From Bdellovibrio sp. SKB1291214 (GTDB lineage Bacteria; Bdellovibrionota; Bdellovibrionia; Bdellovibrionales; Bdellovibrionaceae): 64,000 bases of DNA. Both the position numbers and the translations under genes were made by a program. The notes beneath the pieces are model-generated. The model did not search any database and was not told the DNA's origin. It saw nothing but the letters and a program-made list of their open reading frames with translations. Location of the stretch: assembly GCF_002209355.2 (NCBI RefSeq), contig NZ_CP106855.1:558001-622000 (forward strand), written 5' to 3'. This document shows positions 13,083 through 44,963 of the stretch, in pieces (within the stretch, counting starts at the first letter, position 1; every line of letters begins with the position of its first letter).

Positions 13083-13796
13083 TTAGAAAGCTTGCGTACG
13101 AGCCACACCGCAACGGTTGTAAGCTGTCACCGAGAACGAAGCTGATGTCCAGTTACTTGGCCATGACGAAGGCGACAAGCAGTTGTAGTTAACGCCACCG
13201 ATGCTGCAACTCATATTGCCCACACCCGCACCATTATCAAAGATATAAAGCGCGCTTGATGAAGCAGACGCTTTATTCAGAGTGAAAGTCGGAGCAGATG
13301 CTTGCTTTAAGTTGCAAACTTCAGTGACATAGTCTGAAGAATAAGGATTGCTAACAGCCGGGCGCAAACTGATTTTGATACCATTCCCGTCCAAGTACGT
13401 TTTTGTATTGTAGTTATATAGGTAAATGCGCAAGTCTTTTTGCGCAGACAAGTCCGAACGAACTTGCAAAGACACATAAAAGTAAGAACCGCTTTGCGTG
13501 ATGTAACCCACATAAGCTGCTGTCACTGTCGTATCATACAACACCCAGTAATAGCTTGAAAGGTCACTCACGTTAGTGGGCTTTGCAATTTTCAAAGTGA
13601 TATTCTGGCCAGCCGCCAAGACAACGGGGCTGTTATTCGACGGATAGTAAATGTCGCCTGTATAACCGTCAGCAGCCACTGTCGTAGACGCATCTTCGGC
13701 ATTTCCTGACGAACAGTTTTGAAAGCTCACTGTCACTAGCAGCAAAGCTACGACCGTTCCGCATCCAATCAAAACCTTCTTAATAGATGACTTCAT
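13083..13796 (-). CDS. Unknown lipoprotein, beta-rich
   Basis: 237 residues from the ATG at 13796. An ATG two codons earlier sits only one base from the AAGGGGA ribosome-binding site, so the second is preferred. The signal peptide ends in lipobox SFQNC; the mature part is Ser/Thr/Tyr-rich with alternating hydrophobics typical of beta-sandwich domains, and four cysteines near the C-terminus (VCNL, MSCSI, YNCL, NRCG) that may form disulphides. No family recognised. It probably sits on the inner leaflet of the outer membrane or on the surface. Confidence 0.75.
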   Translation of the reverse strand: MKSSIKKVLIGCGTVVALLLVTVSFQNCSSGNAEDASTTVAADGYTGDIYYPSNNSPVVLAAGQNITLKIAKPTNVSDLSSYYWVLYDTTVTAAYVGYITQSGSYFYVSLQVRSDLSAQKDLRIYLYNYNTKTYLDGNGIKISLRPAVSNPYSSDYVTEVCNLKQASAPTFTLNKASASSSALYIFDNGAGVGNMSCSIGGVNYNCLSPSSWPSNWTSASFSVTAYNRCGVARTQAF

Positions 13797-14081
13797 AATC
13801 ATTCCCCTTGTACCGCACTTACTCCATCGGCTAATTTTGGGAATTTCCTTACAAAAAAGAGATTATTCTTGAAACATTTCAGCAACTAACACCGTTATTT
13901 CATGAGAGGCACTTAAGAAGCGTCTCGAAATGAGATCGTTTGCTCGACCAATTATAAAAAAACTTCGCCTCCATGGTCCTTCAACATTCCCCGCCTAGCA
14001 TGAACTCATGGGGCCCGAGTTGAGGGACTCGATCAGCCCCCAAATTTTACTAGCTGTTAAAGCTTGATAAGGGAGTTCAAA

Positions 14082-14441: not shown

Positions 14442-14475
14442 AAAGCCCCAGCCCGAAAAGTTGGGGCTTTTTAGT
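14442..14475. terminator. Intrinsic terminator between convergent genes
   Basis: A 9-bp stem AAAGCCCCA / TGGGGCTTT followed by TTAGTTTT. Confidence 0.8.
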
Positions 14476-14483
14476 TTTGGAAA

Positions 14484-16250
14484 CTATTGGGCTGCGCCCG
14501 TAAATTGAATTTCCCATTTGGTAAGACTGCCAGAAGTACCATCACCGACTCCATCGATAACTTTCAACGTCCAAAGGCCTGCACTACTCTCTTGATAGAA
14601 GGCATTCGACGCAAAAACATTGTCGGAATAGTTCGCGAGATTGGTCAGCGAGTTACGCATGTTAACTAAAATACTACGCATACCGGATGGAGATGTTAAT
14701 TCCAAAGCCAATTGCGAAACATCGGAGTGTGTAACACTGACTTTAATTCTAACGCTTTCAATTTTTACAGAGGAGGCTGTCCCACCCGAAATACTAATTT
14801 GGGAAATTGCCGCGCCACCCAGGCTTCCATCACCGATTGATACGTTGAGCGTACCGGAACTAACATAGTTTGGTTCAGTAAATGTTCCAAGCATACTGGT
14901 GTAGCTTTTTGCCATGGCAACGGCAGCGTCAACATCGACCTTACCAAAACCATACCAGTTGTGAAATTTAAAACCTGCACTGTTCGTTTTCCATGGAAGC
15001 TCCCATGAATATCCTGCCGGAACTGACAGACCTAGGGGATGAGGGATCGTGCCCGTCGTCACGTAGTCCATTGGAACTGCGGTTTTTGCTAAGATATACT
15101 TCACGTCTCGCCATGTAAGACTGGGATTCGCTTCAAGCATTAAAGCCACAGCTCCAGATATTGTCGGAGCCGCAGAAGACGTTCCATTAAAAGTCGCCGT
15201 ATAATTACATTTCGAATTGGGAGCGGAGCCTCTTTCAAATGGCGTATAAGCGGAGGCTGACGACTTTGCCCAGCCATTTGTGCAGCCCATACGATCCGTA
15301 GTTAACATAGCGGGCTCAGCATATCCATACATTCCGCCAAATCCTGAAATCCAAATATTCGCTCCAGGCGAAGAATATTGGGCGGCGATCCCGTTTGCAT
15401 CCAGAGCTGCCACAATAATCTGATAAGGGTTAATATTGTCACCGTCGAAGTTCGAGTTACCAATACAGCCCTCTGGATCAGCATTTGTATAATCCAGATC
15501 GATCCCTGGGATAAAACAGTACGTATAATAATCATTTCCAGCAGCTTTGACTAAAACTGCCCCTTTACCGTTTCGATAAGATGTTACCGCCGTTTTAAGT
15601 TGAGCCTCATATGCCGATGTCGGTGGCGAGAGTTCAAACTGGCCATAACCCCAACTCATATTCAAAATATCGAAATCCGTGCCCGTGGCTTGATTTAAAA
15701 TAACTGTCAAATCTTGAGATGTCATAGACGACAAAAGATTTGCTACAGCCAGCGTTGCTTTAGGCGCAACACCTCGAGAACCTACTCCATTGCCTCCCAC
15801 GGCAGCAATAATACCAGCCACAGAAGTTCCATGATTATCGCTACTAGAATGTGGCGGTGCAGTTGTTGTCAAATAGGAGTTATTGGAATCTCCAGAAACG
15901 TAATCACGCGAACGCGTCGATGATGTCGGAAAATTGCCCGTTAGGTCTTCGTGTGTATTCTCCAGCCCGTCGTCAGACACTCGGATTTTGATACCATTTC
16001 CTAAAATTCCAGATGACCAAGTGGCACGAAGGTTCAGATCAACCCCAGATGTGCCCCCCGCTCTAGAGATACCCTTCTGACCGCAATTCGCTAGATACCA
16101 GGAATAGTTAAATAGCGGATCCCCTCCATCATTAAAGCAAGAATCCGCCAATTCAAAACCGCTGCCATTACAGTTCGCTAGCGTCAGAGAAAGCATGACT
16201 GCAGTCAACAAAAGTCCCGAACCTGTTAAAAAATCTTTAGTTTTTAACAT
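14484..16250 (-). CDS. Subtilisin/kexin-like serine protease lipoprotein with P-domain
   Basis: 588 residues: signal peptide with lipobox LANC (Cys27), S8 catalytic domain (about 45-440), C-terminal P/homoB domain (about 465-588, ending TKWEIQFTG). Catalytic triad visible as Asp93 (SDDGLE), His140 (NHGTSVAG) and Ser358 (NGTSSAAP), with oxyanion Asn239 (AAGND). The mature enzyme appears to begin at about residue 44 (DPLF..SWYL.NCGQ, the usual kexin mature start), leaving no room for the propeptide that S8 enzymes need. The overlapping upstream gene may supply it. Likely an envelope-anchored protease; prey-protein processing is inference. Confidence 0.92.
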   Translation of the reverse strand: MLKTKDFLTGSGLLLTAVMLSLTLANCNGSGFELADSCFNDGGDPLFNYSWYLANCGQKGISRAGGTSGVDLNLRATWSSGILGNGIKIRVSDDGLENTHEDLTGNFPTSSTRSRDYVSGDSNNSYLTTTAPPHSSSDNHGTSVAGIIAAVGGNGVGSRGVAPKATLAVANLLSSMTSQDLTVILNQATGTDFDILNMSWGYGQFELSPPTSAYEAQLKTAVTSYRNGKGAVLVKAAGNDYYTYCFIPGIDLDYTNADPEGCIGNSNFDGDNINPYQIIVAALDANGIAAQYSSPGANIWISGFGGMYGYAEPAMLTTDRMGCTNGWAKSSASAYTPFERGSAPNSKCNYTATFNGTSSAAPTISGAVALMLEANPSLTWRDVKYILAKTAVPMDYVTTGTIPHPLGLSVPAGYSWELPWKTNSAGFKFHNWYGFGKVDVDAAVAMAKSYTSMLGTFTEPNYVSSGTLNVSIGDGSLGGAAISQISISGGTASSVKIESVRIKVSVTHSDVSQLALELTSPSGMRSILVNMRNSLTNLANYSDNVFASNAFYQESSAGLWTLKVIDGVGDGTSGSLTKWEIQFTGAAQ

Positions 16251-17007
16251 AGTTTCTACTCACGATTTCTAACTCCGCTTTTTGCACACGCGGATCATGC
16301 TGAAGTGCTGAAACAAAATGATTTAAGTCATATGATGCTTGAGAAGACGACACGATATAAAGTTTAAGGTGCGAAAACTCACCACGAACTTGAAGACTGT
16401 ATTCAGATTGAAGGTTTTTGAAAGCAGCCAAGCTATCAACTGTCAGCAAAACAGTTCCAGGGACCACACCAAATTTTCCTGTTCGCTCATCGAAAACAAC
16501 CAACGGCTTTTTACTCTGAAAATTTCTTTCATCTCCACTCATGCTATCGTCTTTCACGATATAGTAACCAGAGTATTGGCCAACTACGACCTCCCCAGCT
16601 TGTTTAGAAAAATCGCGGGCTGGAATTGCACGGACGCCTGCCCAAACTTTCCAAGATGTCGATGAAAATAAATGATTCTCACGCAAAGTCATAGCGAAGC
16701 GTGAATCAACCGATAATGGTTTTTCAGACATTGGTTTTTGTCCACGTCGCTTTACACGCAAGTGCATCTGTTGAGGAGCTTCCGCAACAGATGCAGGAGA
16801 AACCGAAGAAAAAGATGATGATAATGCTAGCGATTCTTGTTGAATCTTTTTGTTTATTTTTTCGGGAGGTGGCATTTCTGCCATACCCGATGAATCCGGA
16901 ATACTCGAAGAGGAGAGCGCGAAGGAGTTTAAACCCTTGCGCTGTCCTTCCCAGAAAAGGAAGACCGCTAATAATGCTAAACCAATGATGATAAGGCCCT
17001 TTTTCAT
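16237..17007 (-). CDS. Exported protein ending in a subtilase-prodomain-like fold
   Basis: 256 residues: N-terminal membrane anchor or signal (GLIIIGLALLAVFLFWE), a low-complexity Ser-rich linker to about 85, then a domain ending in VPGTVLLTVDSLAAFKNLQ, HLKLYIVSSSQ, ALQHDPRVQKAELEIVSR. The last 75 residues match the hydrophobic pattern of S8 propeptides (a L..Y...V....L.LY.V......L..DP.V..AE.D pattern). Its stop overlaps the protease start by 14 bases. I infer a separately encoded intramolecular-chaperone or inhibitor partner of the protease; this is not proven. The start has no clear ribosome-binding site. Confidence 0.7.
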   Translation of the reverse strand: MKKGLIIIGLALLAVFLFWEGQRKGLNSFALSSSSIPDSSGMAEMPPPEKINKKIQQESLALSSSFSSVSPASVAEAPQQMHLRVKRRGQKPMSEKPLSVDSRFAMTLRENHLFSSTSWKVWAGVRAIPARDFSKQAGEVVVGQYSGYYIVKDDSMSGDERNFQSKKPLVVFDERTGKFGVVPGTVLLTVDSLAAFKNLQSEYSLQVRGEFSHLKLYIVSSSQASYDLNHFVSALQHDPRVQKAELEIVSRNYVKN

Positions 17008-17042: not shown

Positions 17043-17483
17043 CTAAATATTCTTACCCATGACCCCGACCAATTGGCTCATTCGGGTCATAAGATTGCCT
17101 AAATTTCGTCTTTCATCACTATTAAACTGCGACCACAGGCGGCTGATGTTTTCGTTATAAACTGGCAGGACTTTTTTCATAAGTTCCAGACCTGTTTCAG
17201 ATAAAACAATGCGGTAGGAACGACTGTCACCCACATTTTGTTGGGGTTGAATCCAGCCCGCTTGCTTTAAATTTGAAATAATCGCAGAGATTGTCGCATT
17301 TGTTACCCCTACTGCCTTGGCAGTCTCGGTTGGAGTCATCCCTTCTGGACTATTATATAGAAGGTTCAAGATCACAAAACGTGTCGTGGTTAATTTGTAC
17401 TCTTGAAAGAACTCTTCCAGTGCTGTTTCAAAATCGATCGTTAGTTTACTGAACAATAAGTGTAACTGCATTTCCTCAGACAT
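17043..17483 (-). CDS. MarR-family transcriptional regulator
   Basis: 146 residues with the MarR winged helix: LTTTRFVILNLLYNSPEGMT, TETAKAVGVTNATISAIISN (recognition helix) and the wing VGDSRSYRIVLSETG. A GGGAGAAG ribosome-binding site precedes the ATG. It is the first gene of a run with the prodomain-like protein and the protease (35-base gap, same strand), so it probably controls their expression and its own. The ligand is unknown. Confidence 0.9.
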   Translation of the reverse strand: MSEEMQLHLLFSKLTIDFETALEEFFQEYKLTTTRFVILNLLYNSPEGMTPTETAKAVGVTNATISAIISNLKQAGWIQPQQNVGDSRSYRIVLSETGLELMKKVLPVYNENISRLWSQFNSDERRNLGNLMTRMSQLVGVMGKNI

Positions 17484-17711: not shown

Positions 17712-18143
17712 ATGAACACGAAATACTTACTAACGATTCTATTGGCCGGCTTGACACTTTTCTTAGCAAATTGCTCTAAGAGCAATAGCAGTGGTTCTTC
17801 CACAACAGCTGGCTCATGCAGTGCAGGCTACGTATATACAACACAATACGGTTGCTTGCCGACTGCCTACTGTACTCAAAATGGTTTAAGCGCCGACTAT
17901 GGTTATAACCAATCTACAAATCAATGTATCCAAGGTACTTATTCTTATGGCAATACGACGTCAGGTTCCCCAACATGTAACGGTATGACTGGTTATGTAT
18001 CTGTAAACGGTACTTGCTTACCAGAAGCTGGTTGCACTCAATACCGCGGTCAAAACGGAGTGGCGTTCTACGGTTACAAAGTAAGCACAACAGGCCAATG
18101 GGCATGTTATCCACAAGGTTACACTGGTCAGTGGTATAACTAA
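17712..18143 (+). CDS. Small Cys/Tyr-rich lipoprotein with an internal duplication
   Basis: 143 residues; signal peptide with lipobox LANC (Cys21), then two similar units of about 45-50 residues, each following C....GYV....G.CLP...CTQ.G......GY.......C. The first runs about 36-80, the second about 95-140. Eight cysteines outside the lipobox suggest disulphide-bonded small domains on the outer membrane. No family recognised. It is preceded by a sigma-54-like promoter and a good AGAGGG ribosome-binding site, so regulated expression of an abundant surface lipoprotein is plausible. Confidence 0.75.
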   Translation: MNTKYLLTILLAGLTLFLANCSKSNSSGSSTTAGSCSAGYVYTTQYGCLPTAYCTQNGLSADYGYNQSTNQCIQGTYSYGNTTSGSPTCNGMTGYVSVNGTCLPEAGCTQYRGQNGVAFYGYKVSTTGQWACYPQGYTGQWYN

Positions 18144-43482: not shown

Positions 43483-43598
43483 ATTCACCTCATCGGTCGG
43501 GCTAGACTCAGCTTTAATTGTCTCACTTCGAGACGGAGCTTTCTACTACACCTCGACTGAAATCTGCCGATAAGCCAATTGGAGAAAGGGGACTCTTC

Positions 43599-44963
43599 AT
43601 GTTTTCTCGCAAGTGGTTGTTAGCATCAGGAGCTGTCGGCGTGATCTTCTTTGGAGGTCTTGGTGTCTATATATATGTCTCCGACAGCGCATCCCCTTTA
43701 CGTTCGCAAAGCTCCAGCAGAATAAAAGATGGACGTCTTTTTGAAACCTCAAAAATTACATCACAAACAGATACTGTAGAAGACGAGCCCAGTGCTTTGT
43801 TCAACGATCCTGCCATTAGCCAAGCTTGGGGTTTGAAAAAATCTGACGCTGCTCGAGCCTGGTCTGTCACTCGTGGCAACCGAGAAATTGTTGTTGCTGT
43901 TATTGATACAGGAGTTGATGAACATCACGAAGACTTGGATAGAAATCTTTGGATCAATCCCGGAGAGTCAGGCAAAGATGCTCAAGGCCGTAACAAAGCA
44001 ACCAACGGTATTGATGACGACGGCAACGGCTTCATTGATGACGTTCATGGCTGGAACTTTGTTTCTAACAATAACAAATTAGACGACAACCACGGTCATG
44101 GAACTCATATCGCAGGTATCATTGGGGCGGAAGCCGGCAATGGTAAAGGGATTACAGGAATTGCTCCCGACGTGAGTCTTATGGTTCTTAAGTATTACGA
44201 TCCCAAAGTTCCCAACACAGATAACTTAAAAAATACCGTAGCTGCAATTAAATACGCTGTAAAAATGGGTGCTCGAGTAATCAACTACTCAGGTGGCGGT
44301 ACAGAGTTCTCTCAAGAAGAACATGATGCCGTACAAGAAGCAGAAAAAGCCGGTATCTTATTCGTTGCAGCCGCTGGTAATGAAAGATCCAACTCGGATC
44401 AACATCACTACTACCCTGCAGACTATAAACTTAGCAACATCATTTCAGTCACCGCTTACGATCCTTCAGTTCAAGTTTTGAATTCTTCGAACTATGGAGT
44501 TGAAACTGTCGATATCGCGGCTCCAGGGCAAAACATCTTATCATGCTTGCCAGGTAACTCTTACGGCTACATGACCGGAACCTCACAAGCGACAGCGTTC
44601 GTAACTGGTGCTGCAGTTTTGGTAATGGCTAATAAACAAGGTGCCTTCAACGCCGTTGACGTTAAAAAGTACATTTTAGCGACTGGTGATGCACAAACTC
44701 AGTTGGCCTCTAAGACACGTACGTCTCGCCAGTTGAATCTTTATAAAGCACTGACAATCCTAGACCAAGGGGTTTCCGCATCTGGAGTTGTAACGGTGAA
44801 TGTAGATAGTATGCAGAAGTTAGGAGCTGATCCAAATGAAGCTCCTGCTGGCCGCGCGGCAAATGAAGTCAGCTCCTTTGGGCGCTCACTCCTGAATGCC
44901 ATTGGAGGAAAACAAAGGCCTAGCCGTTTGGGCTCTAAAGCAAATGATAGTGACGGTCTGTAA
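43599..44963 (+). CDS. Subtilisin-like serine protease (S8)
   Basis: 454 residues from ATG 43599, which has AAGGGGA six bases upstream; the frame extends to 43518 but an upstream start would bury the N-terminal TM (WLLASGAVGVIFFGGLGVYI). Triad: Asp103 (VIDTGVDEHH), His167 (NHGHGTHIAG), Ser329 (TGTSQATAF); Asn261 (AAAGN) is the oxyanion residue. The insertion NGIDDDGNGFIDDVHGWNF is the calcium-binding loop of thermitase/subtilase type. The presumed N-terminal propeptide is short (about 40 residues). Inner-membrane anchor or uncleaved signal; periplasmic or exported. Confidence 0.92.
   Translation: MFSRKWLLASGAVGVIFFGGLGVYIYVSDSASPLRSQSSSRIKDGRLFETSKITSQTDTVEDEPSALFNDPAISQAWGLKKSDAARAWSVTRGNREIVVAVIDTGVDEHHEDLDRNLWINPGESGKDAQGRNKATNGIDDDGNGFIDDVHGWNFVSNNNKLDDNHGHGTHIAGIIGAEAGNGKGITGIAPDVSLMVLKYYDPKVPNTDNLKNTVAAIKYAVKMGARVINYSGGGTEFSQEEHDAVQEAEKAGILFVAAAGNERSNSDQHHYYPADYKLSNIISVTAYDPSVQVLNSSNYGVETVDIAAPGQNILSCLPGNSYGYMTGTSQATAFVTGAAVLVMANKQGAFNAVDVKKYILATGDAQTQLASKTRTSRQLNLYKALTILDQGVSASGVVTVNVDSMQKLGADPNEAPAGRAANEVSSFGRSLLNAIGGKQRPSRLGSKANDSDGL

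Follow-up and report, generated by a model that had tools for sequence, protein, structure and literature searches.

A probable ASP/ORF2-type pair in Bdellovibrio: a propeptide-less kexin-like protease beside a separately encoded prodomain-like chaperone

Where does a kexin-like S8 protease whose own chain has no room for a propeptide find its prodomain, and does the protein encoded just upstream supply it in trans? This question is raised by two overlapping genes in the window, the stretch of 64,000 nucleotides of Bdellovibrio sp. SKB1291214 that was analysed here (NZ_CP106855.1, positions 558,001 to 622,000; Table 1). The arrangement is already published for the protease ASP of Aeromonas sobria, which needs ORF2, a separate protein from an adjacent gene, to become active (PMC5638518). 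The pair in the window is very probably a system of this type, in which the upstream protein supplies the prodomain in trans.

Table 1 Features of the protease-chaperone locus (positions in the window)
Feature	Position	Strand	Evidence
ORF2-like membrane-anchored external chaperone (predicted), 256 aa	16237..17007	-	PF18492 sub-threshold; relatives' matches; fold match 3wqb_B
Predicted N-terminal transmembrane helix, chaperone residues 3-21	16945..17001	-	AlphaFold2 helix; hydrophobic run, flanking Lys/Arg
Predicted disordered linker, chaperone residues 22-106	16690..16944	-	pLDDT about 50 over most; poorly conserved
N-terminal extension with predicted beta strands, chaperone residues 107-182	16462..16689	-	pLDDT about 89-95 from residue 111; VIA alignment to 3wqb_B from 109
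Prodomain-like ferredoxin fold (model), chaperone residues 183-247	16267..16461	-	pLDDT 96-98; Foldseek/VIA matches to S8 prodomains
Fixed-length C-terminal tail, chaperone residues 248-256, predicted to enter active site	16240..16266	-	71/74 family members
14-base overlap of chaperone stop and protease start, ATGTTAAAAACTAA	16237..16250	-	sequence; stop-to-stop spacing kept in most close relatives
Kexin-like S8 protease, ASP homologue, probable lipoprotein without propeptide, 588 aa	14484..16250	-	Pfam PF00082 + PF01483; phmmer to 3hjr/3wqb_A
Signal peptide and lipobox LANC, Cys27, of protease	16170..16250	-	sequence; relatives' lipobox-like Cys; lipidation inferred
Peptidase_S8 catalytic domain, protease residues 84-436	14943..16001	-	PF00082, 4e-39
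P-domain, protease residues 497-583	14502..14762	-	PF01483 P_proprotein, 1.8e-18
MarR-family regulator, first gene of putative operon, lineage-specific	17043..17483	-	PF01047, 5.7e-10
Terminator-like hairpin between protease and convergent gene	14442..14470	.	hairpin scan

The best PDB sequence match of the protease was ASP (phmmer; 3hjr, E = 1.8e-75; 3wqb_A, E = 4.3e-75) over protease residues 36-572, with furin and kexin ranking behind it. ASP residues after 558, including the occluding region with Arg566, lie outside this alignment. Asp93, His140, Asn239 and Ser358 are invariant columns in the protease alignment (A2), and by homology Asp93, His140 and Ser358 were assigned as the catalytic triad and Asn239 as the oxyanion residue. 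The invariant Asp44-Pro45 opens the mature region, and 16 residues separate Asp44 from the lipobox Cys27, in agreement with the original prediction that the mature domain begins almost directly after the lipobox. Therefore, no propeptide of about 80 residues fits in the protease. Nearly all of the 28 close relatives listed have a lipobox-like Cys about 13-29 residues ahead of the Asp-Pro motif, the exceptions being L054, which has a longer N-terminus, and L049, in which the motif was missed by the pattern. Judged from its sequence, the protease combines an ASP-like S8 catalytic domain, with an intact triad, and a C-terminal P-domain in a chain that lacks a propeptide. The variable stretch between Cys27 and Asp44 might be read as a short or divergent propeptide in the protease's own N-terminus, with the upstream protein serving another client. 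However, an S8 prodomain needs more than about 13-29 residues, and the alignment with the ASP chain begins only at protease residue 36, which makes this reading very unlikely.

The 3.7 Mb genome of the strain contains about 14 separate S8 protease loci (L001-L014). Among the 11 of these 14 proteins that were scanned, the protease at 14484-16250 was the only one with a P-domain, and several other subtilases of the genome carry propeptide-like sequence in cis, as judged by eye and backed by Pfam in one case. For another S8 protease of the window (43518-44963, + strand), which begins with a transmembrane segment and shows no evident propeptide, none of the adjacent ORFs was recognised as a prodomain-like partner. 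An unusual Asn at position -1 of the lipobox Cys was observed in three lipoprotein-like products, those of 13083-13802 (- strand, QNC), 17712-18143 (+ strand, ANC) and the protease gene itself (- strand, ANC), and recurs in relatives of the protease as TNC.

For the upstream protein, PDB sequence searches missed ORF2 with both the single sequence and a family profile. Therefore, a comparison of folds was needed. The AlphaFold2 model, built from 30 sequences, starts with the helix at residues 3-21, is then disordered until about residue 105, and ends in a confident core that shows a beta-alpha-beta-beta-alpha-beta arrangement at residues 186-246. Its top Foldseek match was ORF2 in complex with ASP (3wqb_B; E = 1.3e-3, prob 1.00), the Foldseek E-values being modest and the ferredoxin-like fold a common one. 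The same structure was the top match of VIA-align (Z = 8.8, rmsd 2.8, 99 of 99 residues aligned), in an alignment that ends at residue 256 of the model and residue 130 of ORF2. The next matches in both comparisons were the S8 prodomains of subtilisins, EpiP and PC1/3. The Pfam profile ORF_2_N (PF18492) scored the window protein at 24.0 bits (E = 4.9e-5; cut-off 29.2), and matched 24 of the 30 family members at E ≤ 0.1, the best at 1.6e-10. The link to ORF2 rests on the fold together with these intermediate relatives, because the window protein is sub-threshold and the family profile missed ORF2. From the model, the chaperone is predicted to consist of a prodomain-like body, an N-terminal extension and a C-terminal tail, as in ORF2. 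The original prediction had described the protein as membrane-anchored, with a C-terminal part resembling S8 propeptides, and had set structure prediction beforehand as a refutation test, an unrelated fold being the refuting outcome. The predicted fold proved not to be unrelated to S8 prodomains, and a transmembrane helix is predicted at the N-terminus.

Because ferredoxin-like folds are very common and the structural scores middling, one may ask whether the two genes are functionally unrelated, with a ferredoxin-fold membrane protein standing beside the protease by chance. The neighbourhoods of the relatives bear on this point. When genome contigs were searched with the chaperone alone by short peptide patterns, no matches were found, the protein presumably being too divergent for such patterns, and relatives were gathered from the contigs by protease alignment instead. 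A chaperone-alone search gave matches in 36 of the 144 genomes of the class, and the chaperone profile gave matches in 107 of the 369 genomes of the phylum, the weakest of which are probably chance N-terminal matches; weak profile matches limited to the N-terminal part (transmembrane, low complexity) were left out of the relatives. The protease adjoined the chaperone in all 50 loci, 30 of them close and 20 distant, that were retrieved with the chaperone as the only query. Among 128 labelled proteases, some of which are the same place reached by different searches, the chaperone was upstream in 62, downstream (the Aeromonas order) in 35, convergent in four and fused in cis in five, with none found in 22. 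The quick protease tree, which keeps 116 of these loci, implies 13 changes of arrangement when the last class is set aside. Adjacency in 50 of 50 loci despite so many changes of gene order, together with the ORF_2_N matches and the fixed tail and in-cis fusions described below, makes a chance neighbourhood exceedingly improbable.

Seven of the 22 proteases labelled as having no partner belong to a separate outer group (cyanobacteria, an archaeon and others). Inspection by eye of the other 15 recovered six with a partner missed by the profile (L129, L147, L155, L161, L163 and L170) and five at contig ends; in the fetched DNA around about four proteases of the clade (L149, L153, L166 and L169), a recognisable partner was not found. 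For two Nostoc P-domain S8 proteases (L181 and L182), whose N-termini are very short, no ORF2-like neighbour was found. On a contig of Spirobacillus cienkowskii (L151, 5794-11092), two protease-chaperone pairs lie in tandem. The ASP/ORF2 pair was described in Aeromonas, and a PSI-BLAST search by its authors placed it in four other genera (PMC5638518). Homologous pairs, as recognised here by sequence, are spread more widely: they occur across the phylum to which the window genome belongs, and also in other Proteobacteria.

The chaperones of the family end at a fixed point. In 71 of 74 alignable members the end lies exactly nine residues after a conserved Glu (Glu247 here), and the other three are off by one. 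This tail is common to upstream, downstream and convergent chaperones, and it was found in 20 of the 21 chaperones whose genes do not overlap that of the protease. Therefore, gene overlap does not account for its length. Since the full proteins differ widely in length, it is the N-terminal part that varies. The simplest reading of these alignments is that the free C-terminus has to reach a fixed position, like the end of a cut propeptide. In the known system, the C-terminal Lys of ORF2 contacts the catalytic centre of ASP, which ORF2 inhibits with an IC50 of 84 nM (PMC5638518). The window chaperone, in contrast to ORF2, ends in Asn, with Lys in the penultimate position, and occupancy of S1 is thus not obvious. 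A reading of the conserved Tyr-Glu-Lys of the tail as a substrate-like Lys at S1 was considered and dropped in favour of the length argument, because the tail residues are partly dictated by the ATGAAA start of the overlapping protease gene, and because the tail length puts Asn, Phe or Lys last and not the penultimate Lys.

The chaperone and protease genes overlap by exactly the 14 bases originally reported, and translational coupling through this overlap is likely. The MarR gene had been taken for the third gene; in the direction of transcription it in fact comes first, with 35 bp between it and the chaperone gene. Of the 30 close loci, seven have it upstream of the chaperone, one of these only in part. 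These are the closest relatives and a few others, and the regulator is therefore not part of the core system. Past the protease gene, the hairpin could mark the end of transcription, on evidence that is weak because the scan count is close to the shuffled expectation.

A domain homologous to the prodomain/ORF2-like chaperone is fused in frame before five gammaproteobacterial kexin-like proteases, with an intervening stretch of ~170 residues between the two. Support from an iterated profile was strong for L135 (1e-12) and L164 (3e-13) and weak for L144, L145 and L171 (3e-5 to 5e-4). The C-termini of trans chaperones from the same clade (...VPL, ...IPQ and ...EWR) align to an internal position of the fusions. 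The model of the fused domain of L135 is ferredoxin-like. Its fold search is not discriminating alone, since DNA polymerase domains tie with prodomains; the structure alignments end at residue 153, which is the same junction and is matched to residue 130 of ORF2 and to residue 110 of the PC1/3 prodomain. In relatives whose partner is in trans, Calx-beta or Ig-like domains stand ahead of the protease. As for the suggestion that the locus encodes a split precursor, the part that stands is a prodomain-fold protein in trans, while a direction from cis to trans is not established by the tree.

How might the pair work? We propose that the protease would be exported without a propeptide, probably as a lipoprotein, while the N-terminal helix of the chaperone would hold it in the inner membrane and the disordered linker would reach into the periplasm. 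The ferredoxin-like body may then pack on the catalytic domain and template its folding. The fixed-length tail would lie in the substrate groove with its free carboxyl end at S1, like the cut propeptide in other S8 enzymes, and for this reason the chaperone would also inhibit the protease until displaced or digested. The overlapping genes would keep both products made together. Stand-alone I9-type inhibitors also use the prodomain fold. The upstream protein might accordingly be of an inhibitor or immunity type only, silencing at the membrane a protease that folds by itself like intracellular subtilisins, and the measurable inhibition of ASP by ORF2 (PMC5638518) would suit such a role. However, ASP, the closest characterised relative, needs ORF2 for its activity (PMC5638518), nearly all relatives retain the partner, and the homologous domain is also fused in cis; a role in inhibition only is unlikely.

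A broader reading can be offered tentatively, at slightly less than an even chance. The prodomain may move between trans (in either order or convergent) and cis across Bdellovibrionota and Proteobacteria, always ending at the propeptide cut position. The trans chaperone would then be a genetically pre-cut propeptide, to which the anchor in Bdellovibrio may add spatial control over the release of a lipoprotein protease. A listing from 2008 includes a B. bacteriovorus subtilase with a P-domain (NP_967370.1; PMC2605481), and our search of literature largely outside subscription found no paper joining Bdellovibrio, subtilisin, propeptide and chaperone. The system itself is known; what is new here is the comparative evidence from adjacency, gene-order changes, the fixed tail and cis fusions. 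Pairs with varied gene order, together with the cis fusions, are natural material for testing non-covalent propeptide action, and bear on why the position of a propeptide-like C-terminus is fixed.

ASP/ORF2 (PDB 3hjr and 3wqb; PF18492) resembles the window pair in that a kexin-like S8 protease with a P-domain and without a propeptide is encoded next to a chaperone with a prodomain fold, and in both systems the C-terminal end of the chaperone is expected to sit at the active site. The window pair differs in that its chaperone gene lies upstream and overlaps the protease start, its chaperone, at 256 residues, is predicted to have a transmembrane anchor followed by a long disordered linker, and its protease has a lipobox. 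The Fervidolysin N-terminal prodomain (PF22148) gave weak profile matches from some members of the chaperone family, but it is in the same chain as its protease. The in-cis S8 propeptides (subtilisin BPN'/E, the PC1/3-furin prodomain and Inhibitor_I9) have the same beta-alpha-beta-beta-alpha-beta fold as that predicted for the window chaperone, and the structure alignment places the C-terminal end of the chaperone model opposite that of the PC1/3 prodomain. In contrast to these propeptides, the window chaperone is encoded by a separate gene, so that there is no peptide bond to cut, and it has an extra N-terminal extension and a putative anchor.
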